A stretch of 64,000 nucleotides of DNA from Anaerolineae bacterium (GTDB lineage Bacteria > Chloroflexota > Anaerolineae > UBA4142 > SHND01), in assembly GCA_020851635.1 (NCBI GenBank), contig JADZCJ010000006.1:1-64000 (forward strand), read 5' to 3'. Below the pieces are notes generated by a model. That model searched no databases. It saw only the letters and a program-made list of their open reading frames with translations, and was not told where the DNA came from. Both the position numbers and the translations under genes were made by a program. This document shows positions 36,756-63,617 of the stretch, piece after piece; within the stretch, counting starts at the first letter, position 1, and every line of letters starts with the position of its first letter.

Positions 36756-37787
36756 GTGAAACGACTGTTTGCCTTTCTCGCCGCATTCATTTTTGTTGCA
36801 ATCGCCGGCGCAACCCTTGGTATTGCCCAAGCGAACCCATCCGCAGCGCCCAACGAAACGCCCTCCGGCACATTCACCCTGACACCCACAGAAACCATCG
36901 AAAACCCATCCGCCAGCGTTACGCCAACAGCAACCGAAGAAATCTGCCCGCCGCCGCCCCTCGCGCCCGAGCTGATCGCGCCCGCGCACCATGCAGAGTT
37001 CAAAATCAAAACACGCATCAAACTGCGTTGGGGCAAGGTGGACTGCGCCAACAAGTACCGCATCCTCGTGCGGCGCGGCTCGCGCACCGGCGAGCCGGTG
37101 GCACGCGGACATACAGGCAAAACAAAAAAGTTTGTCCTGCTCGAGCCGGGTTATTCATACTTTTGGAACATCAAGTCGTGCATCAACAAACGCTGTCAAC
37201 GCTCCAACACTAGAAAATTCACACTTTTGCCGCCGCCAACGCCTACGCCAACTGCCACACCAACGGTCACCAACACACCGACGAGGACCAACACGCCCCG
37301 AAAGACAAACACTCCTCGCCCCAAGACCCCGCCGGGCACACCCGTGCCGGGCAAACCGCCGGGCAGCTTGAATGATTACAAGGGTCCCGGAGTTTATCTC
37401 AGCGACGACGGTTCGCGTGTGTATTATGCGGACTGTATGTCGGGATACGTAAGATACGGACAAGGTTCAGGAATCGCCACCGTGACCCTCTGGTTCTATC
37501 CCAACGAATTGGTGAGTTTCGAGAGTCGCACTCTCCCCGGACTCTTGGTGCAAAAGGGCAGCGTGCGCGCAAACGGCGAAGGGTATACCGAATTCACTTT
37601 CGACTCGAGCTCGTGGCCCGGCGAACACTATCACATTGATTTTACCGGTCAGTCGAGCAAGGCACATTACTGCGGTCACTTTCAGCTAATGACCAACGAA
37701 TCGGCAAACGCAGGCGAAATCCTCGCGCCGCACACGCCGGAAGAGCTGGAGCAGATTCGTCAAATGGCGGGATCCGAATCGGAATGA
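36756..37787 (+). CDS. secreted fibronectin-III-like protein with Thr/Pro-rich linkers
   Basis: An exported protein of about 343 residues. The signal peptide (LFAFLAAFIFVAIAGATLGIAQA) is followed by a Thr/Pro-rich segment and an FN3-like domain with YRILVRRGSRTGEPV and YSYFWNIKSCINKRC. A repeated TPTATPTVTNTPTRTNT linker then leads to a second unassigned domain with a cysteine pair (YYADCMSGY and AHYCGHFQL). GTG 36756 follows ACAGGAGATTTT; the longer frame lacks a signal. The ATG of the next gene overlaps its stop (ATGA), so the two are coupled and probably work together at the cell surface. Confidence 0.75.
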   Translation: MKRLFAFLAAFIFVAIAGATLGIAQANPSAAPNETPSGTFTLTPTETIENPSASVTPTATEEICPPPPLAPELIAPAHHAEFKIKTRIKLRWGKVDCANKYRILVRRGSRTGEPVARGHTGKTKKFVLLEPGYSYFWNIKSCINKRCQRSNTRKFTLLPPPTPTPTATPTVTNTPTRTNTPRKTNTPRPKTPPGTPVPGKPPGSLNDYKGPGVYLSDDGSRVYYADCMSGYVRYGQGSGIATVTLWFYPNELVSFESRTLPGLLVQKGSVRANGEGYTEFTFDSSSWPGEHYHIDFTGQSSKAHYCGHFQLMTNESANAGEILAPHTPEELEQIRQMAGSESE

Positions 37788-39688
37788 GCTCGCGTGCCGG
37801 CGCCGCGCCCACACTCCAGCTCGAGTCCGACCGGCGCATAAAAAGCGCGCAGATGCTGCGAGACCCGTATCGGTTATGGGTAAACCTGGCGGCGCCGGTG
37901 GCGCTCGCGGCCTACGTGGGGTGGGCGCTTTATCTCGCGTTTTTGCGGCACGCGGCGCTGCACACGTTCCTGTTCGACCTGGGCTTTTTTACCCAGCTGC
38001 TCTGGAATACGGCGCAGGGCAATTGGCTGCAGTCCTCGCTCAAACCCGATACCTTTTTCGGCGGACACTTGTCGCCGGTCCTCTTGCTCCTGACGCCATT
38101 CGTCCGGCTCGTGCCTAACGGTCGAACCCTGCTCTTGTTTCAACAAATCAGCCTGGCAGTCGCAGTACTGCCGGGCTATTTTGTACTGAGACGGGCACGA
38201 CCCGGGTTCGCGCCACTGCTCGTGATTGCGTTTGTCTTGAACCCGCTGCTGCACCAGGTCGCCTCAGCCGAATTTCAAGGCATCATGTTTGCTGTGCCGA
38301 CGCTCGCATTGGCTTTGTACGCGCTCGAAACAAAAAAAGAAAAATTGTTTTGGCTGGCAATTGGTTTGACCCTGCTCGTCCGCGAGGACATGGGCATTTA
38401 TGTGGCAAGCATCGGTTTGTATGTGCTGACATTGCGGAAACGTCCACTGTGGCATGGCATCCTGCTCGTGCTTGTCGGAGCCGCATGGGTGATTGCGATA
38501 CCTACCTATGTGTTTCCCTATCTTGCGGGGTCGCCGTACCCTTATACAAACCTGTTTGAAGAATTTGGCGGATCGTTTGGCGAGATTGCGGTCAATCTCG
38601 CGCGTAATCCCCTACTGCTCATTTCGCGTTGGTTCGAACCTGCCAAGATGGTCGCGCTGTGGCAGATGCTCTACCCGATGGCGTTTCTACCGCTGCTCGC
38701 GCCGGGAGAACAACTCCTCTGGGTCCCGGGAGTTCTGGCATTGCTGACGACCTCAGAACCGGAAATCAACACATTGGGCGGCTGGTGGGTCGCCCCCCTG
38801 CTGCCGCTCTTATGGTTTGCAGCGGCGCGCGCCTTGAGCCGCCTACAAGACACGCCCTTGCGCCTCGCGGCTGCCGTGATGGTCGTCGCGGCGCTGGCGG
38901 GTTTTGTGCTCACGAGCAGGTTTCCCGGAGGAGGACGTTTTGCGCCCGAAATGTATGCCCTGAATCGGCACGCGCAGATCGGTCAAGAAATTCTCGGCAC
39001 CATTCCCCCCGATGCATCACTGGCGACAACAAATCGTCTTGGCGCCCATGCAGCGACGCGACGCGAAATCTATCTGTATCCATGGATTCCGACGACCGCA
39101 TCGCCGCAGTATTTTTTGCTCGACGCACAAGAACCTGATCCTTACCCGCTGTCATCCGACGAGTTGGAGAAAGCCATCACGCGCTTGATGGTTGCGCCGC
39201 GCGTCGAGACCGTGCGTGAGCAGGACGGCTATTTCTTGTTTCGCGCGCACGACAGTCCGGCGTTCGAGCCACAAGGACCGTGGATTTGGGAACCTTATCT
39301 GCGGCTGAACGGCTATCACGTGACCGCCGAGGATGATGCGGGCGCGTTTTTGCAGCCGAACGGGACGCTGCGCGCGGGGAAACAGGCGCGCGTGGTGTTG
39401 TATTGGACCGCACTCGAGACGATGGACAGGGGGTATCGTATTTCGGTCCAACTAGTTGACGGGGACGGACAGGTGGTTGCCGAACACGAGGGCGAGCCCG
39501 CGCTCGGCAGTGTGCCAACCACAAAATGGCTGCGCGAGCGGAATGTGCGCGATGTTCATTATCTCGACATCCCCGCCGATGCGCCTCTTGAGCTGTCACT
39601 GCGCGTCTCGATCCGTGAAACGGATTCGGACGCGCCCCTGGCGCCATCGCAAGGATTCGTCCTGACCGCGCTGCCGGTCCAGCCGTAG
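37784..39688 (+). CDS. DUF2079-like polytopic membrane protein with C-terminal beta module
   Basis: A protein of 634 residues with about ten transmembrane helices and DUF2079-type features (DLGFFTQLLWNTAQGNWL, FGGHLSPVLLLL, LVREDMGIYVASIGLY). It probably has a GT-C fold. The periplasmic C-terminal segment from about residue 532 (ARVVLYWTALETMDRGYRIS) matches a module shared with other large membrane proteins in this window. Function is unknown, possibly a lipid-linked sugar transferase. It is translationally coupled to the FN3-like protein upstream and followed nine bases later by another GT-C-like gene. Confidence 0.8.
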   Translation: MSSRAGAAPTLQLESDRRIKSAQMLRDPYRLWVNLAAPVALAAYVGWALYLAFLRHAALHTFLFDLGFFTQLLWNTAQGNWLQSSLKPDTFFGGHLSPVLLLLTPFVRLVPNGRTLLLFQQISLAVAVLPGYFVLRRARPGFAPLLVIAFVLNPLLHQVASAEFQGIMFAVPTLALALYALETKKEKLFWLAIGLTLLVREDMGIYVASIGLYVLTLRKRPLWHGILLVLVGAAWVIAIPTYVFPYLAGSPYPYTNLFEEFGGSFGEIAVNLARNPLLLISRWFEPAKMVALWQMLYPMAFLPLLAPGEQLLWVPGVLALLTTSEPEINTLGGWWVAPLLPLLWFAAARALSRLQDTPLRLAAAVMVVAALAGFVLTSRFPGGGRFAPEMYALNRHAQIGQEILGTIPPDASLATTNRLGAHAATRREIYLYPWIPTTASPQYFLLDAQEPDPYPLSSDELEKAITRLMVAPRVETVREQDGYFLFRAHDSPAFEPQGPWIWEPYLRLNGYHVTAEDDAGAFLQPNGTLRAGKQARVVLYWTALETMDRGYRISVQLVDGDGQVVAEHEGEPALGSVPTTKWLRERNVRDVHYLDIPADAPLELSLRVSIRETDSDAPLAPSQGFVLTALPVQP

Positions 39689-39697
39689 GTGTTTTGA

Positions 39698-41533
39698 ATG
39701 AGTAAAATCACGCGCCGCGTTTGGCTCGTTCCCTTGCTGACTCTCTGGGGCATCACTATTTGCGCGCTGGCGCTTGCCTATCAAACGCGCCAGCCCCATA
39801 CATTGAATGTGGGCGGCGACGATTGGCTCTATCTCGGCGGATATATGCGGGACATGCACGGCGTGACCGACGACGGAACAGCGCGCTTTCGCTTTACGGG
39901 TGAAACGTCGAGCGTTTCATTTCCATTTATGGGGCAGATGGCTCCGCTCGAAATGACCATGCGGGTCAACGCATGGCGTCCCGAAGGGGTGCGCGCGGTG
40001 ACACTGACGGTGAACGACCTGCCGCTGCGCGAGATTGCAAATGGCGAATGGCGCACGCATCGCACCGTGATGACCGACACTGCGCGGTTTGGACCCAACG
40101 CGTTTGAATTGGGGCTGGCATCCGAGACCTTTGTGCCGCACGAGTATGATGCCAATAACGCCGACCGGCGCGCGCTCGGACCCGCGCTGGAATGGGTCAC
40201 GCTCACGCCGCAAACGTCCCCGAACACGCCGTGGTGGTCGAATCTGACCCAACCCGCATGGGAGCTGGTCCTGCTGGTGGGTCTGTTGGGGACACTCGCT
40301 TATGCGGGGGGCGTATTGCTGGGCGCGCCGCGCGCCGGGATGCTGCTTGCGTTGACGCTTGTCGCTTTTTTTACACTTGTTGTCGCCCTGGCGCGCCTCG
40401 CCATTGCCGCCTACCTGTTGCCGGCAACCGGCGTCGTGCTGGGAGGATTGTTGCTGCTCGCACAACGCGACGCACAGATGAAAAAGCGTTGGATCACTGT
40501 CGCGCTCGTGCTGGGCGTCATTTGCCTGGCATGGGCGGCGCGGTGGGTTGCGGCGACGCACATGCCGTTGAGCGGTGACGAACAGATCTATGTGCCCGTC
40601 AGCGCGCAGTACGCGCAAGCCATCGCCAATGGGCGCGCTGCCGAGATTCTCACGCTGCGTGAAAATATCGAGCATCCGCTTTTCAACAAGCTGGCATTCG
40701 CCGCCGCTATCCTCGTCGGGCAATCGAGCGGTATTCCCGATTTGTTGAGCGCGCGTTATGTCTCGATTGCCGCTTCGGCGCTGCTCACCGCCCTGCTCGC
40801 GTTTGTGAATCCGATTGCCGCCGTCGGGCTGGCGGTCCATTCGATTCAAATTCAGTATGCGAGTCAGGCATATTTAGAAGCTCTGCCCGCGTTGACAATT
40901 TCCGCGGCGGTGATTGCGTTCGAGCGGGCGCGGAGGCACGGAACGCGGTGGCTGCTCCTTTCGGCAATCTGTCTGGGGCTGACCGCCGCCTCAAAATATA
41001 TTTATGCGATTGCGGGATTTGCGATTCTGCCCTTTCTCGTATGGCGGTATCGTCATGCGCCGCTGTTGATTGTGACATACGGGGTTGCTGCGCTCGGCGT
41101 CTTTTTCGTCGCCAATCCGTTTTTGTGGACAACCCCCGCAGCGAATTTTCTCGAAACGCTGACGTTTCACAATCGCGTGAGCGGGAGCGAATTGGTGACC
41201 GGGTATGCGCGCCCTGCGTGGTGGCACATTCCGTATCTCTCACGTCTGTCCGATTTTTATCCCGGCATCCCCTATCTTTCGCTCGACACGTTGATTTTTA
41301 TCGGGGGCATTCTCGGTCTGCCCGCGCTTTGGCGATACAGTCGCCTCTATTTTGCTTGGTTTGTCGTTGCGCTCGTCTTTTTGCTGTTGTGGAACACCAA
41401 GTGGGAGCAGTACGCGCTGACGCTTATCACCCCGCTGTGTCTGGCGTTCGGATTTGGACTGACGGATGTCGCGCGCCGAATATATTCCCGGCGCAGACAA
41501 ACCAAGCGCGTCACGGCTCCCGCTTCCTCGTAA
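39698..41533 (+). CDS. GT39-like polytopic glycosyltransferase with N-terminal sandwich domain
   Basis: A protein of 611 residues. A first helix (LVPLLTLWGITICALALAYQ) is followed by an extracytoplasmic beta-sandwich (MRVNAWRPEGVRAVTLTVN, EWRTHRTVMTDTARFGPNAFE), then about ten helices with GT-C features (LSGDEQIYVPVSAQYAQAI, ENIEHPLFNKLAFAAAILV). In this superfamily the Asp/Glu near the first loop is catalytic (GDEQ). The layout is that of the protein at 20636. It probably glycosylates a protein or lipid acceptor from a polyprenyl-linked sugar. Confidence 0.78.
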   Translation: MSKITRRVWLVPLLTLWGITICALALAYQTRQPHTLNVGGDDWLYLGGYMRDMHGVTDDGTARFRFTGETSSVSFPFMGQMAPLEMTMRVNAWRPEGVRAVTLTVNDLPLREIANGEWRTHRTVMTDTARFGPNAFELGLASETFVPHEYDANNADRRALGPALEWVTLTPQTSPNTPWWSNLTQPAWELVLLVGLLGTLAYAGGVLLGAPRAGMLLALTLVAFFTLVVALARLAIAAYLLPATGVVLGGLLLLAQRDAQMKKRWITVALVLGVICLAWAARWVAATHMPLSGDEQIYVPVSAQYAQAIANGRAAEILTLRENIEHPLFNKLAFAAAILVGQSSGIPDLLSARYVSIAASALLTALLAFVNPIAAVGLAVHSIQIQYASQAYLEALPALTISAAVIAFERARRHGTRWLLLSAICLGLTAASKYIYAIAGFAILPFLVWRYRHAPLLIVTYGVAALGVFFVANPFLWTTPAANFLETLTFHNRVSGSELVTGYARPAWWHIPYLSRLSDFYPGIPYLSLDTLIFIGGILGLPALWRYSRLYFAWFVVALVFLLLWNTKWEQYALTLITPLCLAFGFGLTDVARRIYSRRRQTKRVTAPASS

Positions 41534-41534
41534 A

Positions 41535-43952
41535 GTGGCTACCGTCAACAGTTCTCAACGCGTTCGCACAGACGCAACAGTCAAGACAATCGCCGTGCTG
41601 GGGCTGTTTGTGCTTTTGACAGTTGTTTTGTTGTTTCCGCTTTCGGTGCAGCTGTCCGACCATCTGCCCGATTGGGGCGACCCGCTGGAAAACACATGGG
41701 TCCTGGCATCCGCCGGACGCGCGCTGGTCACCGATCCTCTCAACCTCTATCACGCCAACATTTTCTATCCGTACCCAAATGCGCTTGCATTTTCAGAGAG
41801 TCAGGTCGCGAGCGCGGTGATGGGTCTCCCCGTTTGGCTGGCGACGGGGAACCCCGTCCTTGCATACAATTTTGTCTTTCTCGGCGCGTTCGTCCTGTCA
41901 GGGTTCACCAGCTATCTGCTGGCATACGATCTGACCCGCCATCGCGCGGGCGCTTTGCTCGCGGGCGCGGCGTATGCGTTTTGGGCGTACAAGTTCAATC
42001 ACCTGTCACACCTCAACCTGGTTACGTTGCAATGGCTGCCGCTCGTGCTGTTTGCGCTGCGGCGGAGTTTGATCCAAGACCGCGCGGTCTTTGCCGTGTT
42101 ATTTGCGGTCACGCTCGTATTTCAGGCGCTTTCCTCGTGGTATGCCGCGCTAATGACTCTGCTGGTCGTGGCAGCATATCTTTGCTATTTTTTTCTGTTT
42201 CGTCGCAGACAGACAAACAAGCGACGCATCGCGCAATTCGCCATATTTTTCGGCATTGCCATGCTATTGACCACACTCGTCGCGCTGCCCTATTTTCAGG
42301 TCAGTCGCGAATTGCAGTTTGTGCGCGGGCTGGAGGAAGCCGAACGGTTCTCGGCGCGCCTGCTCTCGTTTCTCAGCGTCGCGCCGTTCAACCGGCTGTA
42401 TCAGGATTTGCTGCCTGTCGCTTTTGGCGAGGCATTGTTTCCCGGGATCATTGTCTTGTTGTGCGCGGCGTTGGGTTTGAGAAAACGGTATCCCTTTCCC
42501 GACCGCGCGTTTTGGATTGCCGCCATCCTTTTCTTTGCGCTAATTTCGTTTGGACCTGTCATGCAATTGGGCGCGGGCATCAAATTCCCCTCACCGCTCT
42601 ACCGGATTCTTTACGAAATTGTCCCGGGATTTCAAGGCACACGCGCGCCCGCACGCTTTTTTGTCGTGAGCATGTTGGGTCTTGCGCTGCTCGCCGCAAA
42701 CGGGTTTGGCGCGGTCACACAGAAAATGAACGCGCAGACGCGCGCACTGGTGACCACAATCGCGTTGGCTTTGTTGTGTATCGAGGCGCTCGCGGTCCCG
42801 GTTCGGGTGATTCCGATCGAAACCAATGGGCGGATTCCGGCGGTCTATGATTGGCTACAAAGACAGCCCGAAGGGAATGTGCTCGAAGTCCCCGTCCGCG
42901 TCGGCGATATCGAGCCGATCACGCGCGCCATGTATTTCAGCATCGCGCACCGGCGCGCGATGCCCGTCGGCTATGCGAGTTTTATCCCCCCGACACAAGC
43001 GGATTTTCTTCAGACGCTCAATACCGCGCTTGCCGCGCCATCGCCGCGCCTGCCCAATCTCTTGCGGGAATTTGACGTGCGTTATGTGATCGTCAATCGC
43101 GCGCAAGAGGGAGCAGGTGAGACAGACGCCGCATTGGGGCAGCGGTCCGAATTTGAATCAGTCTATGAGGACGAATCACACCGGGTCTATCGCGTAAATT
43201 CCGATGCGCCGGAGCATCCTCTGAAATTTGGGTGCCTGGTACCTGCGTATGCTGCGCCCAACGAACCAATCATCCTCTATCTCACGGCACAACACGCGCG
43301 GCGCTATCCGATTGTCAATCGCGACCTGGGCGAACACGAGGTCTCGCTCGATTGGCTCTCTGCCGCCGGAACCATGTCTGAATGGCGCGAGCGCGTCCGA
43401 CTACCCTATGTGCTGCGCGAGCGCATCGAGGGTGTGCCGGTACGGATGACCGCACCCTCACAGACGGGCGAGTACCGCGTTACGTGCGCACTGAATGGGA
43501 CGGTGGACAGCACAACGGAATTGCGCGTCCAGGTAGCGCCCGAATTTCAGACGAATGATGCGTCGCCGCAGCTCGAACTGTTGAAATTTGACTATACCAT
43601 TCCGCAAACGCGCGCAAGCGGCGACATTATCACCACGGCTTTTTGGCGGCGGCGCGGCGAGGTGCGCGAACCGATTGCGATGCAAGCGCAACTGGTGAAT
43701 AAAGACGGGACGGTGGTCTCGGAGGTGACGCGTCAGCCCGTGCTCTATACCTATCCCGTGCGACTCTGGCGGGACAATGAACTGGTCGCGGACACGATTG
43801 CCTTGCCCGTGCCTGCCGAGACGCGTGCAGGTCCGTATCATCTCGTCATTCGCGCCATCAATGAAAACACCGGCGCGGTCGTGCCCATTCGCGACCCGAA
43901 CGGCGCGAGCGCATCGGAATTTGTGACAGGGACATTTGAAATCCGAGAATGA
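41535..43952 (+). CDS. large polytopic membrane protein (YfhO/GT-C-like) with C-terminal beta module
   Basis: A protein of about 805 residues. It has at least ten helices (LGLFVLLTVVLLFPLSV, AYNFVFLGAFVLSGFTSYLL), with DWGDPLENTW in the first loop, which is consistent with GT-C-type membrane enzymes. A long extracellular C-terminal part has beta-rich segments; the last, from about residue 695 (DIITTAFWRRRGEVREPIAM), resembles the module found in neighbouring genes. GTG 41535 lies one base after the preceding stop. A longer in-frame start (ATG 41466) would overlap by 68 bases and is less likely. Function is unknown. Confidence 0.7.
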   Translation: MATVNSSQRVRTDATVKTIAVLGLFVLLTVVLLFPLSVQLSDHLPDWGDPLENTWVLASAGRALVTDPLNLYHANIFYPYPNALAFSESQVASAVMGLPVWLATGNPVLAYNFVFLGAFVLSGFTSYLLAYDLTRHRAGALLAGAAYAFWAYKFNHLSHLNLVTLQWLPLVLFALRRSLIQDRAVFAVLFAVTLVFQALSSWYAALMTLLVVAAYLCYFFLFRRRQTNKRRIAQFAIFFGIAMLLTTLVALPYFQVSRELQFVRGLEEAERFSARLLSFLSVAPFNRLYQDLLPVAFGEALFPGIIVLLCAALGLRKRYPFPDRAFWIAAILFFALISFGPVMQLGAGIKFPSPLYRILYEIVPGFQGTRAPARFFVVSMLGLALLAANGFGAVTQKMNAQTRALVTTIALALLCIEALAVPVRVIPIETNGRIPAVYDWLQRQPEGNVLEVPVRVGDIEPITRAMYFSIAHRRAMPVGYASFIPPTQADFLQTLNTALAAPSPRLPNLLREFDVRYVIVNRAQEGAGETDAALGQRSEFESVYEDESHRVYRVNSDAPEHPLKFGCLVPAYAAPNEPIILYLTAQHARRYPIVNRDLGEHEVSLDWLSAAGTMSEWRERVRLPYVLRERIEGVPVRMTAPSQTGEYRVTCALNGTVDSTTELRVQVAPEFQTNDASPQLELLKFDYTIPQTRASGDIITTAFWRRRGEVREPIAMQAQLVNKDGTVVSEVTRQPVLYTYPVRLWRDNELVADTIALPVPAETRAGPYHLVIRAINENTGAVVPIRDPNGASASEFVTGTFEIRE

Positions 43953-44944
43953 CCGAGCCAACGATTTCAGTTGTGATTCCCGCCTATAACGCGGCGCAGA
44001 CGCTACCGCAAACGCTCGAGGCATTGCGCGCGGCACAGCCGCCCGCGCTCGAAATCATTGTCGTCAGCGACGGTTCCACCGACAACACGGCGCAGCTGGC
44101 GGAATCCTACAGCGCGCGTGTGATTGCGTTGGACAAGAACATCGGCGCGGCGGCGGCAAAAAATCGGGGCGCAGCCGAGGCGCGCGGCGAGGTCCTCTAT
44201 TTCACCGACGCAGATATCGTGGTCCCGCGCGATGCCATCGGCAAACTGCAGACGGCGTTTCAGATGCGGGCGGTGGACGGCGTGGTGGGGCTGCTCGATG
44301 ACAAGATTCCATATCCCGACTGGGCGAGCCAATACAAGAACCTGTGGATGAATTTCACATATGCTCGGTTCGCCAAGGCGGACCGAATCGGTCTTTTTTA
44401 CACCAGCGTTGCGGCAATGAAACGGGCGAGATTTTTCGATTTGGGCGGGTTTGACGAGAACTATCGCGGCGCGAGCATTGCCGAGGACACGGAATTTGGG
44501 CAGCGCGCGTGGGGGCGCGGGGCGTCCATTGTGCTGGAGCCATCGCTGCGGGTGGTGCATCTCAAGGCGTATACGGTTGGGAGCGTCCTGCGCGAGGATT
44601 ACAAACGGGCATATGCCTTGACCTTGATGCGCTTGCGCAAACGCGGCGAGCCGTTTTTTACGAGCGTCCCATTCTTTTACCAGGCGGCGGTGCCGGTCAT
44701 TTATGCGACGGCGCTGTTATTTCTGGCGGCGTTGGTCCTGCAAAACATCTGCCTGATGCTCGTCGCGTTTGCCGGGCTCGGACTCTTTTATCTCTTGAAT
44801 GCGTCGCTGCTGACGTTTGTCCACCGCGCGCGGGGGCTGTCCTTTGCGACCAGGACCGCGCTCTTTTTGCCCGCAGATGTTTTTGTCGTGGGGCTGGGTA
44901 TGCTCCGCGCCTTGCTCGATTTTGCGCGCGGGCGGCGTTATTGA
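43949..44944 (+). CDS. family 2 glycosyltransferase with C-terminal membrane helices
   Basis: A GT2 enzyme of 331 residues. It opens TEPTISVVIPAYNAAQTLPQ, with VVSDGSTDNT, LYFTDADIVVPRD (DxD) and the acceptor-loop EDTEFGQRAWGRG. Two or three C-terminal helices follow (VPVIYATALLFLAALVLQN, ATRTALFLPADVFVVGLGM). It transfers a sugar from a nucleotide donor, probably onto a membrane-lipid acceptor. The ATG overlaps the preceding stop (ATGA), which ties it to the three membrane proteins before it as a glycan unit. Confidence 0.88.
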   Translation: MTEPTISVVIPAYNAAQTLPQTLEALRAAQPPALEIIVVSDGSTDNTAQLAESYSARVIALDKNIGAAAAKNRGAAEARGEVLYFTDADIVVPRDAIGKLQTAFQMRAVDGVVGLLDDKIPYPDWASQYKNLWMNFTYARFAKADRIGLFYTSVAAMKRARFFDLGGFDENYRGASIAEDTEFGQRAWGRGASIVLEPSLRVVHLKAYTVGSVLREDYKRAYALTLMRLRKRGEPFFTSVPFFYQAAVPVIYATALLFLAALVLQNICLMLVAFAGLGLFYLLNASLLTFVHRARGLSFATRTALFLPADVFVVGLGMLRALLDFARGRRY

Positions 44945-45004
44945 GCAAAATCGGGCGAAAATGTGCCTTTGATCGAGCCGCGAGCGGCACAATTGAACGG
45001 CGCA

Positions 45005-47310: not shown

Positions 47311-47350
47311 AAACAGGTGGACAGGGTAATAGTTGTCTGCCTGTTTTTTT
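47311..47350 (+). terminator. Rho-independent terminator after the radical SAM gene
   Basis: AAACAGGTGGACA (47311-47323) pairs with TGTCTGCCTGTTT (47334-47346), with two G-U pairs, and is followed by a long run of T. It is similar in sequence to the hairpin at 13951. Confidence 0.9.
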
Positions 47351-47437
47351 ATGGCTCAACCAAAAAATAGATGGATCGGTTGCCGTTGGTTCGTTCTAAT
47401 TTTCAATCGTGACGATTCTGATTTACAATCTCTGCTG

Positions 47438-48169: not shown

Positions 48170-48231
48170 GAGACCATCACGACACGAAAAGTGACGGGCG
48201 TTTGCCATGTCATTGGACCGAAACCGGACTG

Positions 48232-54483: not shown

Positions 54484-56280
54484 ATGTCCCTTTCACGTCC
54501 TTTGGGGTTGCTGCTCGCGGGGTTCATCCTGCTCGGCGTCACTTACAGCGCAATCACACCCTTGTTCGAAGCGCCGGACGAGCAGTGGCATTTTGCATTC
54601 ATGCAGCATGTGGCGCAGGGACGCGGACTGCCTGAGCAGTCATTGCCGTTGCAGCATCTGGCGCGACAGGAAGGGAGCCAGCCACCGCTCTATTATCTGC
54701 TCGCCGCCGCATTGACATTTTGGATTGACACCTCTGACTATTCCGCCACCGTCCGCGAGAACCCGCATTACGGGTTTGACGTGCCCGGCGTGGTGAATGA
54801 CAACAAGAATCTTTTTATTCACACGGCACAAGAAAAGTTCCCTTATCATAATACCGCGCTGGCGATGCACATGGCACGCTGGCTGTCGCTGGCAATGGGC
54901 GCGGTCGCAGTCTTGTTTACATATCGGCTGACGCGTCTCGTCGCGCCGCATAACGAAAATGCGGCGCTGGCGGCAGCTGCGCTGGTCGCATTCACACCAC
55001 AATTCCTTTTTATCAGCAGCGCGGTCAGCAACGACAGCGCGATTGTGGCATTGTGTGCGGTCGCGCTGTATTTGCTCGTCCGCGCGCTGCGGGTCGCGCC
55101 GACCTGGCGTGATGCAGTCTTGATCGGCATTGCGGCGGGATTATGCGCCATCACCAAAGTCAGCGGTCTGGCGATGCTCGCGCTGGCGATGCTCGCGCTT
55201 ATATATATCAATCGCGCCAATTTACGACAATTGATCACGCAAGCGGCGGTTGCGCTCGCCGCGTTCGCCATCGTTGCGGGTTGGTGGTATGGGCGCAATC
55301 TGGCGTTGTATGGTGAAGTTACGGGGACGCGGCGGATGGTCGAGATTTTTGGCGGACGGGTCGCCCCGCTGACGTTCGAGGGCTGGGGCGCACAGCTGCG
55401 CGAAGTTTTCGAGACATTCTGGGTTGGATTTGGCTGGGGCAACATTCGCGCGCCCGAATGGGTCTATTGGGTCGTCGGATTGGGCGCACTGCTCGGCATC
55501 GTCGGGCTGCTGATCGGGTTCTGGCGAGTTGTCAAACGCTCGCGGACCGCCACACCGCGCATCCCTCCCGTCCGGTCATTCCAAGTGTATGCGCCACTGT
55601 TTGTTCTTGCGGCGTGGGCGCTGATCATTTTTCTCGCGCTCTTGCGGTGGATGGTCCAGACGCAGGCGCCGCACGGGCGTTTGATGTTTCCCGCGCTGCC
55701 CGCGCTCGCGCCGCTCGCAGTAGTCGGCTGGATGCAGCTCGTCCCGCGCGCCGCACAAAAGCGAGTGTCGCAGGCAATCGCCGTCGGGCTGTTTGGTTTT
55801 GCGGCGGCCGCGGCGTTTATGCTCCTCCTGCCCGCGTACGCATATCCGACTCGACTGGATGAGAATGATGTTGCGTCAATCCCCTCTCGCGTGGATATTC
55901 GCTTTGACGATTCGTTGATGCTGCTCGGCTCGTCAGTGCACCCGCATCCCGTTGACCCGCGCGGCGCGCTGCAAGTGGACCTGTATTGGCGCGTGCTCAA
56001 ACCCATGAATACGGACTATTCGCTCAATCTGGCGGCGCTGGATGAGAATTATCGCGTGGTCGGGTCGCGCAACAGTTATCCCGGACAAGGGATGCTACCG
56101 ACGAGTCTGATGACGGCGGGCGAGATCTGGCGCGACACGTATTGGCTGCCCGCCACTGCGCCCACGGGCTTGGTACAAGTATCGGTTTACGAGCTCAAAT
56201 CACAGCAAAATCTGGATGCGTTTGACCCGGCAGGGAACGAGATTACGCCGATTGTAAATCGCTTTGCGTTCCCCAGATAG
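54484..56280 (+). CDS. DUF2142-like polytopic membrane protein (paralogue 1) with C-terminal beta module
   Basis: A protein of 598 residues. A first helix is followed by the family loop FEAPDEQWHFAFMQH and QPPLYYLL, then about ten helices; LTFWIDTSD lies between the first helices. The extracellular C-terminal region from about residue 494 (LQVDLYWRVLKPMNTDYSLN) is one copy of the module shared with genes at 37784, 56572, 58428 and 61278. DUF2142 proteins are of unknown function, probably GT-C-type transferases of the cell envelope. It starts three bases after the hydrolase. Confidence 0.8.
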   Translation: MSLSRPLGLLLAGFILLGVTYSAITPLFEAPDEQWHFAFMQHVAQGRGLPEQSLPLQHLARQEGSQPPLYYLLAAALTFWIDTSDYSATVRENPHYGFDVPGVVNDNKNLFIHTAQEKFPYHNTALAMHMARWLSLAMGAVAVLFTYRLTRLVAPHNENAALAAAALVAFTPQFLFISSAVSNDSAIVALCAVALYLLVRALRVAPTWRDAVLIGIAAGLCAITKVSGLAMLALAMLALIYINRANLRQLITQAAVALAAFAIVAGWWYGRNLALYGEVTGTRRMVEIFGGRVAPLTFEGWGAQLREVFETFWVGFGWGNIRAPEWVYWVVGLGALLGIVGLLIGFWRVVKRSRTATPRIPPVRSFQVYAPLFVLAAWALIIFLALLRWMVQTQAPHGRLMFPALPALAPLAVVGWMQLVPRAAQKRVSQAIAVGLFGFAAAAAFMLLLPAYAYPTRLDENDVASIPSRVDIRFDDSLMLLGSSVHPHPVDPRGALQVDLYWRVLKPMNTDYSLNLAALDENYRVVGSRNSYPGQGMLPTSLMTAGEIWRDTYWLPATAPTGLVQVSVYELKSQQNLDAFDPAGNEITPIVNRFAFPR

Positions 56281-56312
56281 GACAAGGGTTTGCGTCCTAT
56301 TCCCAGTTGCGC

Positions 56313-56476: not shown

Positions 56477-56481
56477 GCAGG

Positions 56482-56502
56482 GCAAATTTCAAATTTGTCC
56501 TA
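56482..56502. repeat. AAATTT palindromic repeat
   Basis: GGCAAATTTCAAATTTGTCC is an imperfect palindrome directly after the 82-bp repeats. It has the look of a dispersed short intergenic repeat. Confidence 0.45.
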
Positions 56503-56571
56503 CCTCGTACGGCGAATATAATCTTGGGCGGTTGTGCTCTCCGCGCAGCCGAAAAGTGAGCGATAGTCATT

Positions 56572-58431
56572 TTGCGTCGAATTGATCCCTTTCTCATCGC
56601 GCTCTTGGCAGCTTTTGCCATTCTGTCGGCGATGACCTCGATCCTCGTTCCCCTGTTTGAAGGTCCCGACGAAGACGACCATTTTCGGTATACCAAATAT
56701 CTTGCCGATTTCCGCGCGCTGCCGGTGCAGTCGTTTCAACAGGGCGGCGGCACAGCAGGACATCAGGGCTGGCAGCCGCCGTTCTATTACGCGCTCGCCG
56801 CGCTCGTGATCTCGCCGATTGACACATCGGATTATCCCGACCGTCTGCAGCGCAACCCGGCGGCGGCGCTCGAAGGCGACCTCGCGTGCTGCGGGCGCAA
56901 CAACTATTTCCATTTCGACGCCGAAGATTTTCCTTTTCAAAAGACGACGCTCGCGGTGCATCTCGCGCGCGGCGTGACGATCGCGTTCGGGCTGGTGTGC
57001 GTGTATGCGATTTATGGGCTGACGCTGACGCTCTTGCCCGCGCGGCGCTATCTTGCATTGGCGACGACGGCGATTGCCACACTCAACCCATCCTTTTTAT
57101 ACAGCAGCGCGCTCGTATCGAACGACATCCCCCTCGTCGCATTCTGCACGCTTGCGCTGTTGGCGGCAGCGAAAATCCTCACGGAAAAATGGGAGCCCGA
57201 TTGGAAAGCGTTTGCGCTTTTGGGAATGTGGTTGGGACTCGCGCTGCTGACCAAGACAACCGCGCTCGGGCTGATTGGCTTGGCGTTTTTCGTCGTACTG
57301 TATATGGCATGGGAACAGCGCGGCGATTCACTGCTTTCCGCGCGATTTCTGTTGACGCGCGGGTTTGCGCTCGCCGCGCCGGTCGCGCTCTTGACGGGTT
57401 GGTATTTTGCGCGCAACCAGCTCGAATACGGTGACCCGCTGGCATACCGCTTGATTGCGGCATCGGCGCTGCCGCCGCGCGATGCCCCGCTCACCCTGCC
57501 CGAGCTGTTGAGCATCAATTTTCCATGGCTCTGGCAGACGTTTTGGGGTGGTCCGACGCCGGGTGATTTCCCACGTGTGCTGTTGAATGTATTTCTCGGC
57601 GCGCTGATCGTCGGTGTGATCGGCACGGCGCTGTATCTCGTCCGCGAATGGCGCGCGCTGGGCAGAAATCGGCTGGCCGCGTTCGGCTTGATGCTGGGAT
57701 GGTTCGGTTTTGTTTTTGCGGCGCAGGTGCAGTTTATCCGCACGGCAAGCGGGACCGACCAGGGACGCTATCTGTTTCCTGCGATCTCGACGCTGGCGCT
57801 GGTCTATGCGCTGGGATGGAGTCACGTCGTGTGGCGCATCGGCTCGCTCATTCGCCGCCCATTCGAGCTTGTCCGCGCCGAGCGAATGGTGGCGATTGTG
57901 TGCACTGCATTTTTTATCGCCCTTGCCTCTTTTGTGCTTGTGACGTTCACTCTGCCCGCGTATGCAGCTCCCGCAATGATTGATCCTGCGAGCATCGCAC
58001 AACGCGGCGCGCCGATAGATGCGGACTTTGCCAATGGGATGCAGCTGCGCGGCTCGGTGTTGTCGACGCGGGCAATCGCTTGTAACGAGAAATTGGGTGT
58101 GACGCTGTTCTGGACGAGCGACGAACCGATCCGGGACACGTATCGCGTGTTTGCCCACCTGGTGAATGATCAGGGCGCGGTCGCGGGCAACAAGGATGTA
58201 ATTCCGGGCGGCGGCGCGTATCCGACCGTGTATTGGAAGCCGGGAGAATATTTTGCAGACACGATAAACGTGCCGCTGAACCGGGGGGCGCGCGCCGGCA
58301 ACTATCGTGTGATCGTCGGGACGTACAAGGTCGGTGAACCCGAACACCGCGTGAATTTGAGAAATTCGGAAGAGGATTTTGTCATGCTCGGAGATGTGCA
58401 GGTGAACGCACCCGTGGAGGGCTGTCCGTGA
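56572..58431 (+). CDS. DUF2142-like polytopic membrane protein (paralogue 2) with C-terminal beta module
   Basis: A protein of 619 residues. It opens MRRIDPFLIALLAAFAIL (TTG start, uncertain), followed by the family loop LFEGPDEDDHFRY and QPPFYYALAA. About ten helices follow, and IDTSDYPDR corresponds to the IDTSD segment of the other paralogues. The C-terminal extracellular part from about residue 505 (LGVTLFWTSDEPIRDTYRVF) is a copy of the shared module. It is preceded by a repeat-rich 290-base stretch. Its stop overlaps the next start (GTGA), so it is coupled to the DUF2723-like gene. Confidence 0.78.
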   Translation: MRRIDPFLIALLAAFAILSAMTSILVPLFEGPDEDDHFRYTKYLADFRALPVQSFQQGGGTAGHQGWQPPFYYALAALVISPIDTSDYPDRLQRNPAAALEGDLACCGRNNYFHFDAEDFPFQKTTLAVHLARGVTIAFGLVCVYAIYGLTLTLLPARRYLALATTAIATLNPSFLYSSALVSNDIPLVAFCTLALLAAAKILTEKWEPDWKAFALLGMWLGLALLTKTTALGLIGLAFFVVLYMAWEQRGDSLLSARFLLTRGFALAAPVALLTGWYFARNQLEYGDPLAYRLIAASALPPRDAPLTLPELLSINFPWLWQTFWGGPTPGDFPRVLLNVFLGALIVGVIGTALYLVREWRALGRNRLAAFGLMLGWFGFVFAAQVQFIRTASGTDQGRYLFPAISTLALVYALGWSHVVWRIGSLIRRPFELVRAERMVAIVCTAFFIALASFVLVTFTLPAYAAPAMIDPASIAQRGAPIDADFANGMQLRGSVLSTRAIACNEKLGVTLFWTSDEPIRDTYRVFAHLVNDQGAVAGNKDVIPGGGAYPTVYWKPGEYFADTINVPLNRGARAGNYRVIVGTYKVGEPEHRVNLRNSEEDFVMLGDVQVNAPVEGCP

Positions 58432-61187
58432 GCGCAGCGCGCAAACCCACGTCGAACGAGCATGGCTTGGCAACGCTGACCGTCAACTGGGATGCGCTGG
58501 CGGCGGTGTCGCTGTTTCTTGCCGCGTTCGCCCTTTATGCGCGCACCGCGGCGCCCGGCGTTCTGGACGGTGATTTTGGCGAGTTTCAGACAAATGCCTA
58601 TTTGCTCGGCGTGAGCCACACGGGATATCCGCTGTATTTTCTACTGGCGAAATTGTGGACCCTCCTCATTCCCGTCGGCAGCATCGCGTTGCGCGTGAAT
58701 GTGTTTTCGGGGCTGTTTGGCGCGCTCACGCTGGTCATGCTTTTGGTCACCCTGCGCACACTGGGCATTTCGCTGATCGTCTCCTTGTTCGCCTCGGCGC
58801 TGTTTGGCGTTTCGCGGGTGCAGTGGTCGCAGGCGGTCATTCCGGATGTTTACACGCTCAATTCGTTCTTTATAGTTCTGGTCATCTGGCTGGCAATCTT
58901 GTGGCGCATGGGGCGCGTCCCGTTGTGGTGGGTGGCGCTTGCGTATGGGTTGTCGCTGACGCATCATCGCACCATGATCATGCTCGCGCCCGCGCTGGGA
59001 CTGTTTGTGCTCTGGGGCGGGGGGCGCAAGATTTTCGAGCCGCGCACCCTGCTCAAAGCAACTGCCGCACTCGTACTGCCGCTTTTGCTCTATCTGTATA
59101 TCCCCCTGCGCGGGTCGAGCGACGTGGGCGTCGAATATCACGCCGAGAATTTTATCTATGCCATCATAGAGACAAATGTTTCGAACGATATGCGGTTTGG
59201 TCCGCCGGGATTCCTGTGGGAGCGGTTCACACAGGTCTATCTCGCTCTGTTGATCGAGCAATTTACCATCGTCGGGTTTGTGTTTGGCTTGCTCGGCGTT
59301 GTGACTCTCGCCGTCAAGCGCGTGCCGCGCGATTTCCCGGCTTTGCTGCCGCCGCGCCAACTGCTGCTTTTGCTCGGGCTGGCGCATATCGTCGAGACGG
59401 CGTTCGCCATTCCGTTTTGGGTGTTTGACAGCGAGATCTTTTTTATCCCGTCGTATCTGACATTTTTGTTTTTTGTGGCGCTGGGATTGGGGTGGGTGTG
59501 GGATGTGCTGCGGGGACGATTGGAATTGCCGCTCGCACAAAAATCTGTGCTCGGAATTGCGACGACGGCGCTGGTCGTGTGGGCTGGGTTTGTGTTGTGG
59601 ACAAACCTGCCGCGCAATGATCAGAGCAGCAATGACGCGGCAGAGGCGCGCTGGCAGGAAATTCTGGCGCAACCGTTTCAAGAGGACGCGATCTTTGTCG
59701 GTCCGTGGGAAGATCTCACCCCACTCGAATATTTTCAATACGTAGAAGACGTGCGGCGCGATTTGAAACGTCATAAAGTCGTGATCCACGCAGACCAGGC
59801 GCGGACTATCCGGCAGGGAGACCTTGCCGCGATGACACAAGCATTGCTGCAAAACGACGCCGATGTATATGTGACGAGATATCCCGCCGACACCGAGACA
59901 ATGACGGGGTTCGACCGCTGGGATGCGGTCGCGGTTGCGTCCGTGTGGAAAATACAGCAGCAACCAACACGGCAAGAGCAATTGCGCGCGACGTTCAAAG
60001 ACAACGAGACGGTGCGCGTGATTGCGCTGTCGCCGCGCGAGCTGCGCGCGGGCGATTTCTTGACCGCGCGGGTGAACTGGTCTCCAGACGCGCCTCTGGA
60101 AAATATGCGGCTCGTCCTGCGCTTGCGCGACGCGACGGGCAGGGTGTGGGTGGAGCAGGAAGCCCTGCCGCTGGGCGGGCGCACGCTCGAACGCGACGGG
60201 AATGCCGTGCGCGATCTCTATGGGCTTGTTATCCCGCCGGATGCGCCGCCGGGGACCTATTCGTTTGACCTTGCCGCGTTCGAGCGCGGGTCGCAGACGC
60301 CGGTCGCGCTGGTCGGCGACGAAAATCGGATCGCGCAAGAGCTGGAGGTTGGAACGTCGAAAACACCGACCGCGCTAAACCGCCTACGCATTACACACCC
60401 ATTGCAAGTAGAGGTCGGTGATGCCGCGCTGCTGGGGTATGCGGTGAGCGCGATCGAGCCGCGCGGCGGGGACATTATCGAGTTTACAAGTTGGTGGCAG
60501 AACGTCGCCAATGCGGACGACAAGCTGGAAATCAAACTGCGCGATGCGGCGGATGTAGAGACGGTGCTTTATCGGGGCGCCTTGTTTCCCGAGGCAAGCG
60601 GCGGATTGAATCCGACGCAGGCGCTGCGCGCGCGGAACGAAATCACGATTCCTCCGACGGCGGCGGCGGGCTATGCGCGCGTCTTGGTGTCGTTGAACGG
60701 ACAAGCCGCGCCGCCGATCCGGCTGTCGTTGGGCGAGACTCTTCGCAAGTTTCAGGCGCCGATTGTTCAACATCCGCAGTTGACTCGGGTCGGCGACTCG
60801 GTGCAACTGCTCGGTTACAAACTGGACCGCACGGAATATCGCGCGGACGAAAAACTGCTCCTGACATTGTATTGGAGCGCAAGCGAAACGCCCGATGCAA
60901 GTTACAAGGTGTTTGTTCATCTGGTTGATGCGAACGGCGTTCTGCGGACTCAGCGCGATGCGATTCCCCAAAATAATACACTGCCAACAAATCGCTGGTT
61001 TGCAGGCGAATATGTTACGGATGAATATGTCCTGGACCTGCCCGCGGACCTTGCGCCGGGAGAGTACCGGATTCTGGTCGGGATGTATCTCCAAGAGAGC
61101 GGCGACCGCGTGCCCTTGAAGGCTGAGAGCGGGACGCGCATTGCGAATGACGCCGTGGTGTTGGGGAATGTGATTACAATCAGGTGA
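58428..61187 (+). CDS. DUF2723-like giant membrane protein with three C-terminal beta modules
   Basis: A protein of 919 residues. The N-terminal half has about ten helices with DUF2723 features (VLDGDFGEFQTNAYLLGVSHTG as first loop, VQWSQAVIPDVYTLN and LTHHRTMIMLAPALGL). The extracellular half carries three tandem modules, from about residues 539 (DFLTARVNWSPDAPLENM), 681 (IIEFTSWWQNVANADD) and 804 (KLLLTLYWSASETPDASYKV), each ending in a PG-Y segment. DUF2723 proteins may be protein O-glycosyltransferases. GTG 58428 overlaps the preceding stop. Function is unknown; the repeated modules are probably sugar- or protein-binding. Confidence 0.8.
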   Translation: MSAARKPTSNEHGLATLTVNWDALAAVSLFLAAFALYARTAAPGVLDGDFGEFQTNAYLLGVSHTGYPLYFLLAKLWTLLIPVGSIALRVNVFSGLFGALTLVMLLVTLRTLGISLIVSLFASALFGVSRVQWSQAVIPDVYTLNSFFIVLVIWLAILWRMGRVPLWWVALAYGLSLTHHRTMIMLAPALGLFVLWGGGRKIFEPRTLLKATAALVLPLLLYLYIPLRGSSDVGVEYHAENFIYAIIETNVSNDMRFGPPGFLWERFTQVYLALLIEQFTIVGFVFGLLGVVTLAVKRVPRDFPALLPPRQLLLLLGLAHIVETAFAIPFWVFDSEIFFIPSYLTFLFFVALGLGWVWDVLRGRLELPLAQKSVLGIATTALVVWAGFVLWTNLPRNDQSSNDAAEARWQEILAQPFQEDAIFVGPWEDLTPLEYFQYVEDVRRDLKRHKVVIHADQARTIRQGDLAAMTQALLQNDADVYVTRYPADTETMTGFDRWDAVAVASVWKIQQQPTRQEQLRATFKDNETVRVIALSPRELRAGDFLTARVNWSPDAPLENMRLVLRLRDATGRVWVEQEALPLGGRTLERDGNAVRDLYGLVIPPDAPPGTYSFDLAAFERGSQTPVALVGDENRIAQELEVGTSKTPTALNRLRITHPLQVEVGDAALLGYAVSAIEPRGGDIIEFTSWWQNVANADDKLEIKLRDAADVETVLYRGALFPEASGGLNPTQALRARNEITIPPTAAAGYARVLVSLNGQAAPPIRLSLGETLRKFQAPIVQHPQLTRVGDSVQLLGYKLDRTEYRADEKLLLTLYWSASETPDASYKVFVHLVDANGVLRTQRDAIPQNNTLPTNRWFAGEYVTDEYVLDLPADLAPGEYRILVGMYLQESGDRVPLKAESGTRIANDAVVLGNVITIR

Positions 61188-61277
61188 GTGCTTTACTGGA
61201 TGCGGGTCGAGAGAGTCGGGTTGGAAAACGCGAATCTGCGTAAAGCTTGGCGAATTGGTTCGCCGGGTTGTTGGTAA

Positions 61278-63617
61278 ATGTTAAATCGGCTGAAAGAGCT
61301 TTTGGCAAGCGAGCGCGCGATCTATGGATTGGTCGCGCTTTTTGTGCTGCTCGGCGCCCTCTACTCGGTGGTGAATCCGATTTTTGAGGCGGGCGACGAG
61401 CTCTGGCATTACCCGTATACGCAATGGATCGCCCGGGGCAACGGACTGCCCGTGCAGGACCCGACAAAAGAACAGTTGTGGGAGCAGGAAGGCGGACAGC
61501 CGCCGTTGTTTTATGCAGCGAGCGCGGCGCTGACGTTTTGGATTGATACGTCCGATATGCAAGACCGCTTGTGGCGCAATCCGTATGCAAGAATCGGCAT
61601 CCCGTTGGCATTCGGGAACAAGAATATGGTGGTGCATACAAGCGCGGAAGACTTGCCGTGGCGAGGGACGACGCTCGCAGTGCACCTGATTCGGTTCCTG
61701 TCGGTGTTGTTTAGCGCGGGGACGGTGTTTTTGACGTGGAAGGTGACGTGGGAGGTGTTGGCAGCGACGAGCGCGAAGGCGACACCGGAATCGGGACATC
61801 GCCGCGCCGTGACATATCTGCTCCCTCTGCTGGCTGCTTGTGTTGTGGCGTTCAATCCGATGTTTTTGTTTATCAGCGCGTCGGTAAACAACGATGCGCT
61901 GGCGGCGCTGCTGGCAACGGGCGCGATCTATCTGACCGTGCAGCTGGTGACGCGCGGAGTGACGAAGGCGCGGGCGCTGGCGCTGGGTGTGATCGTAGGA
62001 TTGGCGATTCTCGCCAAGGTGAGCAATCTGGCGCTGGGCATTGTGGTGATGAGCACGCTGGCGTATTGTTTGTGGAGGACGCGCGATTTCAAGCGGATTG
62101 TGTTGGCGGGTCTCTTGTTTCTGTTACCTGTGGCGGCGCTGACATTGTGGTGGTTTGCGCGGAACTATACATTGTATGGTGACCCGTTGGCGTTCAACGT
62201 ATGGATGCAGATTGCGGGAGGGCGCGCGCCGCAGACGGTGCTTGGATTGTTGGACGAGTTTCAGGGTTTCCGCATATCGTTCTGGGGAAATTTCGGCGGG
62301 GTGAACGTGATTGCGCCCGAATGGGTGTATTCGGCGCTCGATCTGTTTTCTGTGGTGGCGGTCGTCGGGTTGGTGATTGGCGCGGTCCGGCGGATTGTGC
62401 CCGCCCTTGCGTGGATCATGGCGCTGCATGTGCTCATCGTTTTCGTGGCGCTGGTGCGTTGGACGCTTATGACTTTTGCGTCACAGGGACGTTTGATGTT
62501 TCCCGCAATCGCTTCGATTTCGATCTTGATTGTCTTTGGGCTATATGCGGTGGGTGAATTTGTCGCAAAATTGGCGCGCGGGCGGTCAAAAAGCGCGGAA
62601 CGATTCGCGCCGGTCGCGCTGCCAGCCGCGCTTGGCCTATTTCTTTTTGTATTTGCATCGAGCGCGCCGTTTGTGTTGATTGCGCCCGTCTATGCCCAAC
62701 CCCCGCGCATCACGGACGAGTCAGCGGCGCCGAATCCCGTCCACATCAAATATGACGCAGGGAACGCGCAGCCCGAACTGCTGGGTTACGAGATGACGCG
62801 CGTTCTGAGAGGAAACGAACTGCCGCTCAAATTGTTCTGGCGGACGGATGCCCCAATTGATCAGGACCTGCTCTTGTATATCCACGTTTACGATGCGGAC
62901 GGTGAACGGATCGGGCAGTGGGACGCGTTTCCCGGAAATGGACTGCTGCCGACGCGGCTGTGGCAGCCCAATGAAATCATCGTGGACGATTACCGCGTGC
63001 CGCTGACGCCGACGGACGCGTATCCGCCGCTCGCGCGGGTCGAAGTGGGGTTGTCACGTCCGGGGGCATCGCGCCCACTCGTGGCGCGCGACCCGGAAGG
63101 TCGTGAGATTACGCCGACGCTGGGGCGCGTGCGGACGACGTTCCGGGACCCCAAAGGGGACGAACGCCCGGTATTTTTTCATTTTGGGGACACGTTCGAT
63201 CTGCTCGATTTCGAATTTGAACAGAATGGGGCGCCGGTTGATCTGGGGGCAGACCCTGTGCGCGTCCAAGCCGGGCAACCCCTGCGGGTCAAATGGACTC
63301 TGCGCGCGGCAAATTCACCGGACGCAGATTACAAGATGTTTTTTCAATTGGTTGACGATGCGGGCAACGTGATCGCACAGCGTGACGCCGAACCGGCGAA
63401 TGGAGCGTTTCCCACATCCTATCTGCTGGACGGCGAGGTGGTTACGGATGTGTTTGAGTTGGAAATTCCCAAAGACACGCCACCCGGTCAATACCGAATC
63501 ATTGCGGGGATGTATGGCGTTCAGGACGGCGCGCGGCTGCCTGTCATTGGGGCGATCGGCAAAGTGACGGCGGAGCAAGACCATATCGAGGCGCGGGTGG
63601 AAATTCCTGATTTCTGA
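61278..63617 (+). CDS. DUF2142-like polytopic membrane protein (paralogue 3) with two C-terminal beta modules
   Basis: A protein of 779 residues. It has the family loop FEAGDELWHYPYTQWI, QPPLFYAASAALTFWIDTSD and about ten helices. The extracellular part has two copies of the shared module, from about residues 511 (ELPLKLFWRTDAPIDQD) and 665 (PLRVKWTLRAANSPDADYKM). The last codons and the stop lie inside a (TGATTTC)n heptanucleotide repeat, so repeat-length change could alter the C-terminus. The 90-base gap before it shows no clear promoter. It is probably part of the same transcription unit as the two preceding genes. Confidence 0.8.
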   Translation: MLNRLKELLASERAIYGLVALFVLLGALYSVVNPIFEAGDELWHYPYTQWIARGNGLPVQDPTKEQLWEQEGGQPPLFYAASAALTFWIDTSDMQDRLWRNPYARIGIPLAFGNKNMVVHTSAEDLPWRGTTLAVHLIRFLSVLFSAGTVFLTWKVTWEVLAATSAKATPESGHRRAVTYLLPLLAACVVAFNPMFLFISASVNNDALAALLATGAIYLTVQLVTRGVTKARALALGVIVGLAILAKVSNLALGIVVMSTLAYCLWRTRDFKRIVLAGLLFLLPVAALTLWWFARNYTLYGDPLAFNVWMQIAGGRAPQTVLGLLDEFQGFRISFWGNFGGVNVIAPEWVYSALDLFSVVAVVGLVIGAVRRIVPALAWIMALHVLIVFVALVRWTLMTFASQGRLMFPAIASISILIVFGLYAVGEFVAKLARGRSKSAERFAPVALPAALGLFLFVFASSAPFVLIAPVYAQPPRITDESAAPNPVHIKYDAGNAQPELLGYEMTRVLRGNELPLKLFWRTDAPIDQDLLLYIHVYDADGERIGQWDAFPGNGLLPTRLWQPNEIIVDDYRVPLTPTDAYPPLARVEVGLSRPGASRPLVARDPEGREITPTLGRVRTTFRDPKGDERPVFFHFGDTFDLLDFEFEQNGAPVDLGADPVRVQAGQPLRVKWTLRAANSPDADYKMFFQLVDDAGNVIAQRDAEPANGAFPTSYLLDGEVVTDVFELEIPKDTPPGQYRIIAGMYGVQDGARLPVIGAIGKVTAEQDHIEARVEIPDF

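Follow-up and report, generated by a model that had tools for sequence, protein, structure and literature searches.

A Wzt-related beta-sandwich module, probably glycan-binding, fused to GT-C-type membrane proteins of an Anaerolineae bacterium

We analysed a stretch of 64,000 nucleotides (the window) from an Anaerolineae bacterium of the phylum Chloroflexota (assembly GCA_020851635.1, contig JADZCJ010000006.1, positions 1 to 64,000), in which six genes between positions 37784 and 63617 encode membrane proteins ending in a shared module that occurs once, twice or three times. Our preferred explanation, to which we assign a probability of about 0.58, is that the module is an extracytoplasmic domain of glycan-binding type, related to the carbohydrate-binding domain of Wzt, and that it was fused to glycosyltransferases of the GT-C fold to grip the acceptor chain. 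The sugar binding, acceptor positioning and catalytic activity that we infer would combine as follows. The GT-C enzyme would extend a growing surface glycan by a sugar taken from a polyprenyl-phosphate donor, while the module outside the membrane would grip the acceptor chain and offer its end to the active site. Where copies stand in tandem, the C-terminal one, in which the pocket residues are kept, would be the likely reader, with upstream copies acting as spacers or providing other specificities.

Hidden Markov model (HMM) searches identified nine copies of a module of about 130 residues in the window, all at the C-termini of six proteins. One copy each was found in P0001, P0003, P0004 and P0005 (genes at 37784, 41535, 54484 and 56572), three in P0006 (58428) and two in P0007 (61278). 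BLASTP among the tails of the six proteins showed that they are homologous, the best pairs giving expectation (E) values of 1e-14 to 1e-21. An independent HMM, trained solely on copies from named public genomes with the sequences of the window and of its own genome left out, recovered every one of the nine (E 1.9e-6 to 4.3e-43) and had zero further matches in window open reading frames (ORFs) of at least 100 amino acids, either forward or in a reversed-sequence control. The independent HMM and the reversed-ORF control thus ruled out a chance pattern, and we conclude that the copies share a common ancestry. A previous reading of this DNA that used no database searches (the sequence-only reading) had proposed a shared C-terminal beta module in these six proteins, which the BLASTP and HMM results bear out; its copy series of one (37784, 54484 and 56572), two (61278) and three (58428) was also correct. 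All elements of the motif pattern that it had listed are present in the consensus over 179 copies, rFGd...LlGy.l......pG..l.vtLyWrA......dYtvfvhLlDa.G...aQ.D..P..G..PT..W.pGe.v.D.y.l.lp.dappG.Y.l.vGlYd..tg.RLpv.d, whose main elements are L-Y/F-W, Y-x-V-F-x-H-L-x-D, P-T-x-x-W, G-E-x-x-x-D and P-G-x-Y. No family in Pfam, NCBIfam or PHROGs matched the module confidently, no Pfam or NCBIfam model covers it, and a search of solved structures by sequence gave no significant relative. In the literature searched we likewise found no account of this module family, of its copy numbers or of the range of GT-C types that carry it.

The structure of copy 3 of P0006 was predicted with AlphaFold2 from an alignment of 61 copies. 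The model was mostly beta and formed an immunoglobulin (Ig)-like sandwich with a mean predicted local distance difference test (pLDDT) score of 96.1. Its top PDB match by Foldseek was the carbohydrate-binding domain of Aquifex Wzt (6o14, E 2.2e-5), and its top match by VIA-align was the Wzt domain with bound 3-O-methyl-mannose (8dky), which aligned as a full-length beta-sandwich with a Z score of 11.7 over 115 residues at 2.6 Å. Copy 2 of P0007, taken within a full-length model of that protein, matched 8dky at Z 10.2. The segments picked out by the sequence-only reading are therefore joined both by HMM matches and by a single predicted beta-sandwich fold, rather than having unrelated folds.

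A profile-profile comparison covering Wzt_C, NPCBM_assoc and MG2 also placed the module closest to Wzt (probability 79%, P 1.6e-5, 103 columns), with NPCBM_assoc at 27% over 29 columns and MG2 at 6%. As a null, 20 column-shuffled Wzt_C profiles gave P values of 0.09 to 0.66; an earlier comparison with a smaller Wzt alignment had given a Wzt_C probability of 47%. The Pfam Wzt_C model (PF14524) weakly matched six of the 61 module copies (best E 5.4e-4) and did not match copy 3 of P0006 at E up to 1. Weak Pfam matches to NPCBM_assoc (NEW3), MG2 and DUF4832, Ig-like domains of a similar sandwich class, were seen in a few copies, and at two other loci (L046:866-3397 and L043:1726-4095) the module regions scored weakly as MG2, a generic Ig-like family. 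NPCBM_assoc and MG2 were rejected as the nearest family because both were weaker than Wzt_C by profile. Judged from the models, the module is an Ig-like beta-sandwich related to the Wzt carbohydrate-binding domain, which it resembles most. We do not class it as a member of Wzt_C, since its Pfam scores were weak and its protein context differs: whereas the Wzt domain is joined to an ATP-binding cassette (ABC) ATPase, the module is joined to GT-C membrane enzymes, all complete module proteins except two frameshift pieces are polytopic membrane proteins, and in none is the module C-terminal to an ABC-transporter ATPase. Unlike Wzt, the module also contains a long conserved P-x-x-G-x-x-P-T-x-x-W loop.

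In Wzt the Asn313 amide, His350 and the backbone of Ile299 contact the sugar, and Leu300, Thr346, Ala348 and Trp362 form a methyl pocket (PMC9445017). We mapped Wzt onto the module by profile alignment, which was free of gaps from the Leu300 strand to Asn313 and was anchored on the shared P-G-x-Y for the other strand. Leu300 corresponded to module position 46 (H 52%, Q 21% and R 13%, or 86% together), Asn313 to D59 (81% D), Ala348 to G100 (71%) and His350 to Y102 (79% Y). By this alignment, the module resembles Wzt in that positions equivalent to the pocket are conserved, and differs in having D and Y where Wzt has N and H. Along their strands, positions 46 and 102 alternate with hydrophobic positions and are themselves occupied by polar or aromatic residues.

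The strongest alternative, although we consider it unlikely, is a structural Ig-like domain that spaces, stabilises or dimerises GT-C enzymes without binding sugar, with upstream copies forming a longer stalk. Many non-binding domains share the fold, including MG and the GH2 sandwich, and the most conserved residues of the module (W31, P62, P68, W72, G93 and Y95) look structural. Moreover, the single copies of P0001, P0003 and P0004 keep the core without the pocket, and the binding domain of Wzt itself forms a dimer (PMC9445017). Several further points weigh against glycan binding. Ig-like domains of GH2, Spo0M and RbmA matched the module at Z 10 to 10.9, near the 11.7 of Wzt; because the Ig-like sandwich is common and the rival scores are close, the fold alone is no demonstration of sugar binding. 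The pocket residues agree with Wzt in position and not in identity, by a mapping taken from the profile alignment and not from superposed coordinates, and we identified no equivalent of Wzt Trp362 or of the trap loop in the module. At least one copy lacks the pocket in four window proteins (P0001, P0003, P0004 and P0006) out of six. Finally, the support from a six-position signature (44, 46, 57, 59, 100 and 102) needs qualifying, as the signature was picked after the conservation had been seen. It was kept far more in last copies (5.4 of 6) than in upstream copies (2.6) among 146 copies, but this pocket retention is inflated because the census query contained the signature positions; the fairer figure, from the window's own genome only, was a weaker difference of 4.9 versus 2.2 (p = 0.019). 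Core positions diverged upstream as well, less strongly (8.1 of 9 in last and 6.7 in upstream copies).

Conservation within the genus bears on both explanations. Copy 2 of P0007 has a mean identity of only 42% to its same-genus orthologues, and F44, H/Q46, Q57, D59, G100 and Y102 are kept in six of six genomes. One would not expect a spacer to retain a polar or aromatic site (H/Q46, Q57, D59 and Y102), mainly in the last copy, despite such divergence, and the profile similarity is higher for Wzt_C than for MG2 or NPCBM_assoc; both results argue for the glycan-binding explanation. In P0005 the module is more conserved among same-genus orthologues than the membrane part (78% versus 65%). The pocket positions agree in copy 3 of P0006, copy 2 of P0007 and P0005, and are lost in P0001, P0003, P0004 and copies 1 and 2 of P0006. 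Diverged residues of P0006 copy 2 such as E44, K46 and A59 are constant across six genomes, a pattern that hints at a different constrained role and not at decay.

The arrays themselves are also conserved. In all five same-genus genomes that were compared, the equivalents of the genes at 56572, 58428 and 61278 were adjacent and in the same order, with one, three and two modules, the first gene being split between two frames in one of these relatives. A tree built from 146 copies grouped upstream and last ones by position far more than chance would, with 17 and 16 label changes versus 46 and 34 after shuffling, although many forks of this tree were unresolved. Such position-wise clustering across proteins rules out recent tandem duplication as a general rule and indicates that the arrays are old.

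The proteins that carry the module were surveyed in a scan of one genome per species. Among the matches listed there, 57 of the 59 complete module ORFs were predicted to have at least five membrane segments ahead of the first module; in one ORF a segment was predicted after the last. The two membrane-free ORFs were frameshift pieces of membrane-protein genes, which within this census argues against the module as a domain of soluble proteins. Pfam matches were found in 54 of these 59 ORFs, mostly to PMT_2 (37), PMT (11), TMEM260-like (7) and PTPS_related (4), and more rarely to DUF2142 (3), STT3 (3), DUF2079 (2) and YfhO (2). Similarly, 25 of the 28 completely read module proteins in the window's own genome matched a GT-C-type Pfam family at E < 0.01, and the remaining three had 8 to 10 membrane segments each. 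From clan membership we take DUF2079, DUF2142, DUF2723/TMEM260-like, PMT_2 and YfhO-like proteins to be variants of the GT-C glycosyltransferase fold. Not every such protein carries a module: by coordinates, about 17 of the 52 PMT_2 places and 7 of the 10 TMEM260-like places in this genome fall in module ORFs. The sequence-only reading had described the carriers as unlike membrane proteins, which does not hold, as all are of GT-C type by their Pfam labels and, for P0007, directly by its model. Its proposal of several topologies was right in that helix number varies, but all lie within the GT-C fold and the module always follows the last helix.

The full-length model of P0007 (pLDDT 84.6) has eleven membrane helices, by secondary-structure reading, followed by two sandwiches, an arrangement that puts the modules on the side of the first extracytoplasmic loop. 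In P0004, P0005 and P0007 this loop contains an F-E-A/G-x-D-E acidic motif that same-genus orthologues keep; the P0006 counterpart, D-G-D-F-G-E, is likewise kept in same-genus orthologues. The motif is probably catalytic in the carriers. Helix count and charge distribution together indicate that the modules are extracytoplasmic, on the same side as the motif loop. These results support the earlier view that one extracytoplasmic beta module was appended to membrane proteins bearing different Pfam labels, in a setting of glycan building.

The membrane part of P0007 matched Pmt4 (Z 24.5), ArnT (23.5) and AglB (23.4), as well as PglB and Emb, and the window proteins resemble ArnT, PMT, PglB and AglB in membrane part and catalytic side. 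To our knowledge those enzymes lack this module and their extracytoplasmic domains are of other kinds. A second alternative is that the ligand of the module is a protein and not a glycan. The module would then capture the acceptor that is to be O-glycosylated, such as an S-layer protein or a lipoprotein, much as oligosaccharyltransferases do with their extracytoplasmic domains. In keeping with this, the nearest structures to the membrane part are the protein O-mannosyltransferase Pmt4 and oligosaccharyltransferases, and animal TMEM260 is reported to initiate protein O-mannosylation (PMC11292533). However, the top structural and profile neighbour of the module binds a polysaccharide terminus, and modules occur on many GT-C types, including DUF2142 and DUF2079, so that we regard a protein acceptor as improbable.

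A precedent for gripping a glycan acceptor is provided by EmbC, a mycobacterial GT-C enzyme that needs its C-terminal module, which binds acceptor arabinan, for chain extension; the C-terminal part of EmbC comprises a lectin-like module and another subdomain (PMC3044687). Like the window proteins, EmbA, EmbB and EmbC combine a GT-C enzyme with an extracytoplasmic C-terminal module, which in the window proteins is only presumed to bind, and their membrane domains align with the P0007 model at Z of about 13 to 17. Unlike Emb, the proteins described here have one to three copies of another sandwich, on many GT-C types, and the Emb-specific C-terminal Pfam model matched no window protein at E up to 1. 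By this analogy, acceptor binding by a module of different ancestry is the most likely role. The Wzt fold and the architecture of a GT-C enzyme with a C-terminal binding module were already known; what we did not find described, either in the papers searched or in Pfam and NCBIfam, is this family of modules, its multiplicity and the breadth of GT-C types that carry it. If glycan binding is true, the module would add to the cases in which GT-C transferases have acquired a domain for binding the acceptor.

The module is widespread. The window's own genome (5.8 Mb) contains 39 copies at E < 1e-3, carried by about 29 proteins that are spread over more than 15 contigs, and 22 to 69 copies were found in each of the 20 genomes of a search of relatives, this genome among them. 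Across the phylum, 60 of 201 genomes carry at least one copy. The species scan yielded at least 52 loci with a consensus query, which biases this census toward typical copies; among the matches listed, nearly all were titled Chloroflexi, Anaerolineae or related Chloroflexota, together with one Acidobacteria bin. The latter match (L134:2-946) has the module followed by about 200 more residues and lies at a contig end, so mis-binning is possible. A tblastn search of plasmids with one module found no copies. The own genome also contains three Wzt-type ABC ATPases with Wzt_C (L140, L147 and L152 on contigs C55, C48 and C47), and thus has both the exporter form and the relative that is fused to GT-C enzymes.

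This distribution also bears on the proposal of the sequence-only reading that all module proteins share one substrate or partner in a single surface-glycan system of the window, which we consider very improbable. The six module proteins are indeed packed into 26 kb, four stand in a row, three members of this row keep their order and 1-3-2 copies in same-genus genomes, and full-pocket copies have FHQDGY-like residues in common, but the carriers are spread over many contigs, pocket residues vary among copies, and upstream and last copies belong to partly separate lineages. A tentative extension of the glycan-binding explanation, itself rather unlikely in full, is that in many Chloroflexota, with up to 69 module copies in a genome, dozens of paralogous GT-C enzymes carry Wzt-related readers, of which the C-terminal one would read a common glycan motif while diversified upstream ones would set each acceptor, such that the order of assembly would be written in the modules and not in the catalytic domains.

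These findings define a widespread domain that lacks a Pfam or NCBIfam model, with 20 to 70 copies per genome in these Chloroflexota, and link it by structure to an export domain whose known role is to read the O-antigen end. If the module does bind glycans, it would offer a direct handle on surface-polysaccharide building in a poorly studied phylum. Unlabelled DUF2079, DUF2142 and DUF2723 proteins become testable as acceptor-guided transferases.

All six module genes are on the plus strand. P0001 (37784..39688) is a DUF2079-type GT-C protein of 634 amino acids (Pfam DUF2079, E 1.1e-55) with one module at residues 505-633 (39296..39682), whose pocket is diverged (SQEESR). P0003 (41466..43952, starting at 41466 or 41535) is YfhO-like, with a weak YfhO match (E 1.3e-4), and its one module (43557..43946) also has a diverged pocket (QQETRI). 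P0004 (54484..56280, 598 amino acids) is of DUF2142/PMT_2 type (DUF2142, E 6.3e-11; PMT_2, E 1.9e-10), its one module (55891..56274) again being diverged at the pocket (NASNSY). In P0005 (56572..58431, 619 amino acids), a PMT-type protein (PMT, E 4.5e-15), the pocket of the one module (58015..58407) is retained (FHNDGY). P0006 (58428..61187, 919 amino acids) is TMEM260-like (DUF2723; TMEM260-like, E 1.2e-21) and has three modules: copy 1 (59985..60353) has a diverged pocket (VREEAF), copy 2 (60405..60749) is the most diverged (EKRASN), and copy 3 (60783..61181), the copy modelled with AlphaFold2, has the full pocket (FHQDGY). P0007 (61278..63617, 779 amino acids) is of DUF2142 type (DUF2142, E 8e-6), with a GT-C fold at Z 24.5; copy 1 (62745..63137) reads YHQDGS, and copy 2 (63171..63608), which matched the Wzt domain within the full-length model, has the full pocket (FQQDGY).

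P0002 and the GT-C protein at 48052 have no module detectable by HMM. A GT-C-like protein encoded at 39698-41533, adjoining P0001, lacks the C-terminal module and has an extracytoplasmic segment of about 160 residues after its first membrane helix; a 163-residue piece covering this segment had no Pfam match. The protein at 48052-49878 is another of GT-C type, with weak PMT_2/PMT_4TMC matches. Next to GT-C genes are two family-2 glycosyltransferases (Pfam Glycos_transf_2; 43949-44944 and 47333-48169), which possibly make polyprenyl-phosphate sugar donors. On the minus strand, positions 18862-32223 contain an apparent propionyl/methylmalonyl-CoA pathway cluster that includes two methylmalonyl-CoA mutase-like subunits, a biotin carboxylase, a carboxyltransferase, an acyl-CoA dehydrogenase and a thiolase.

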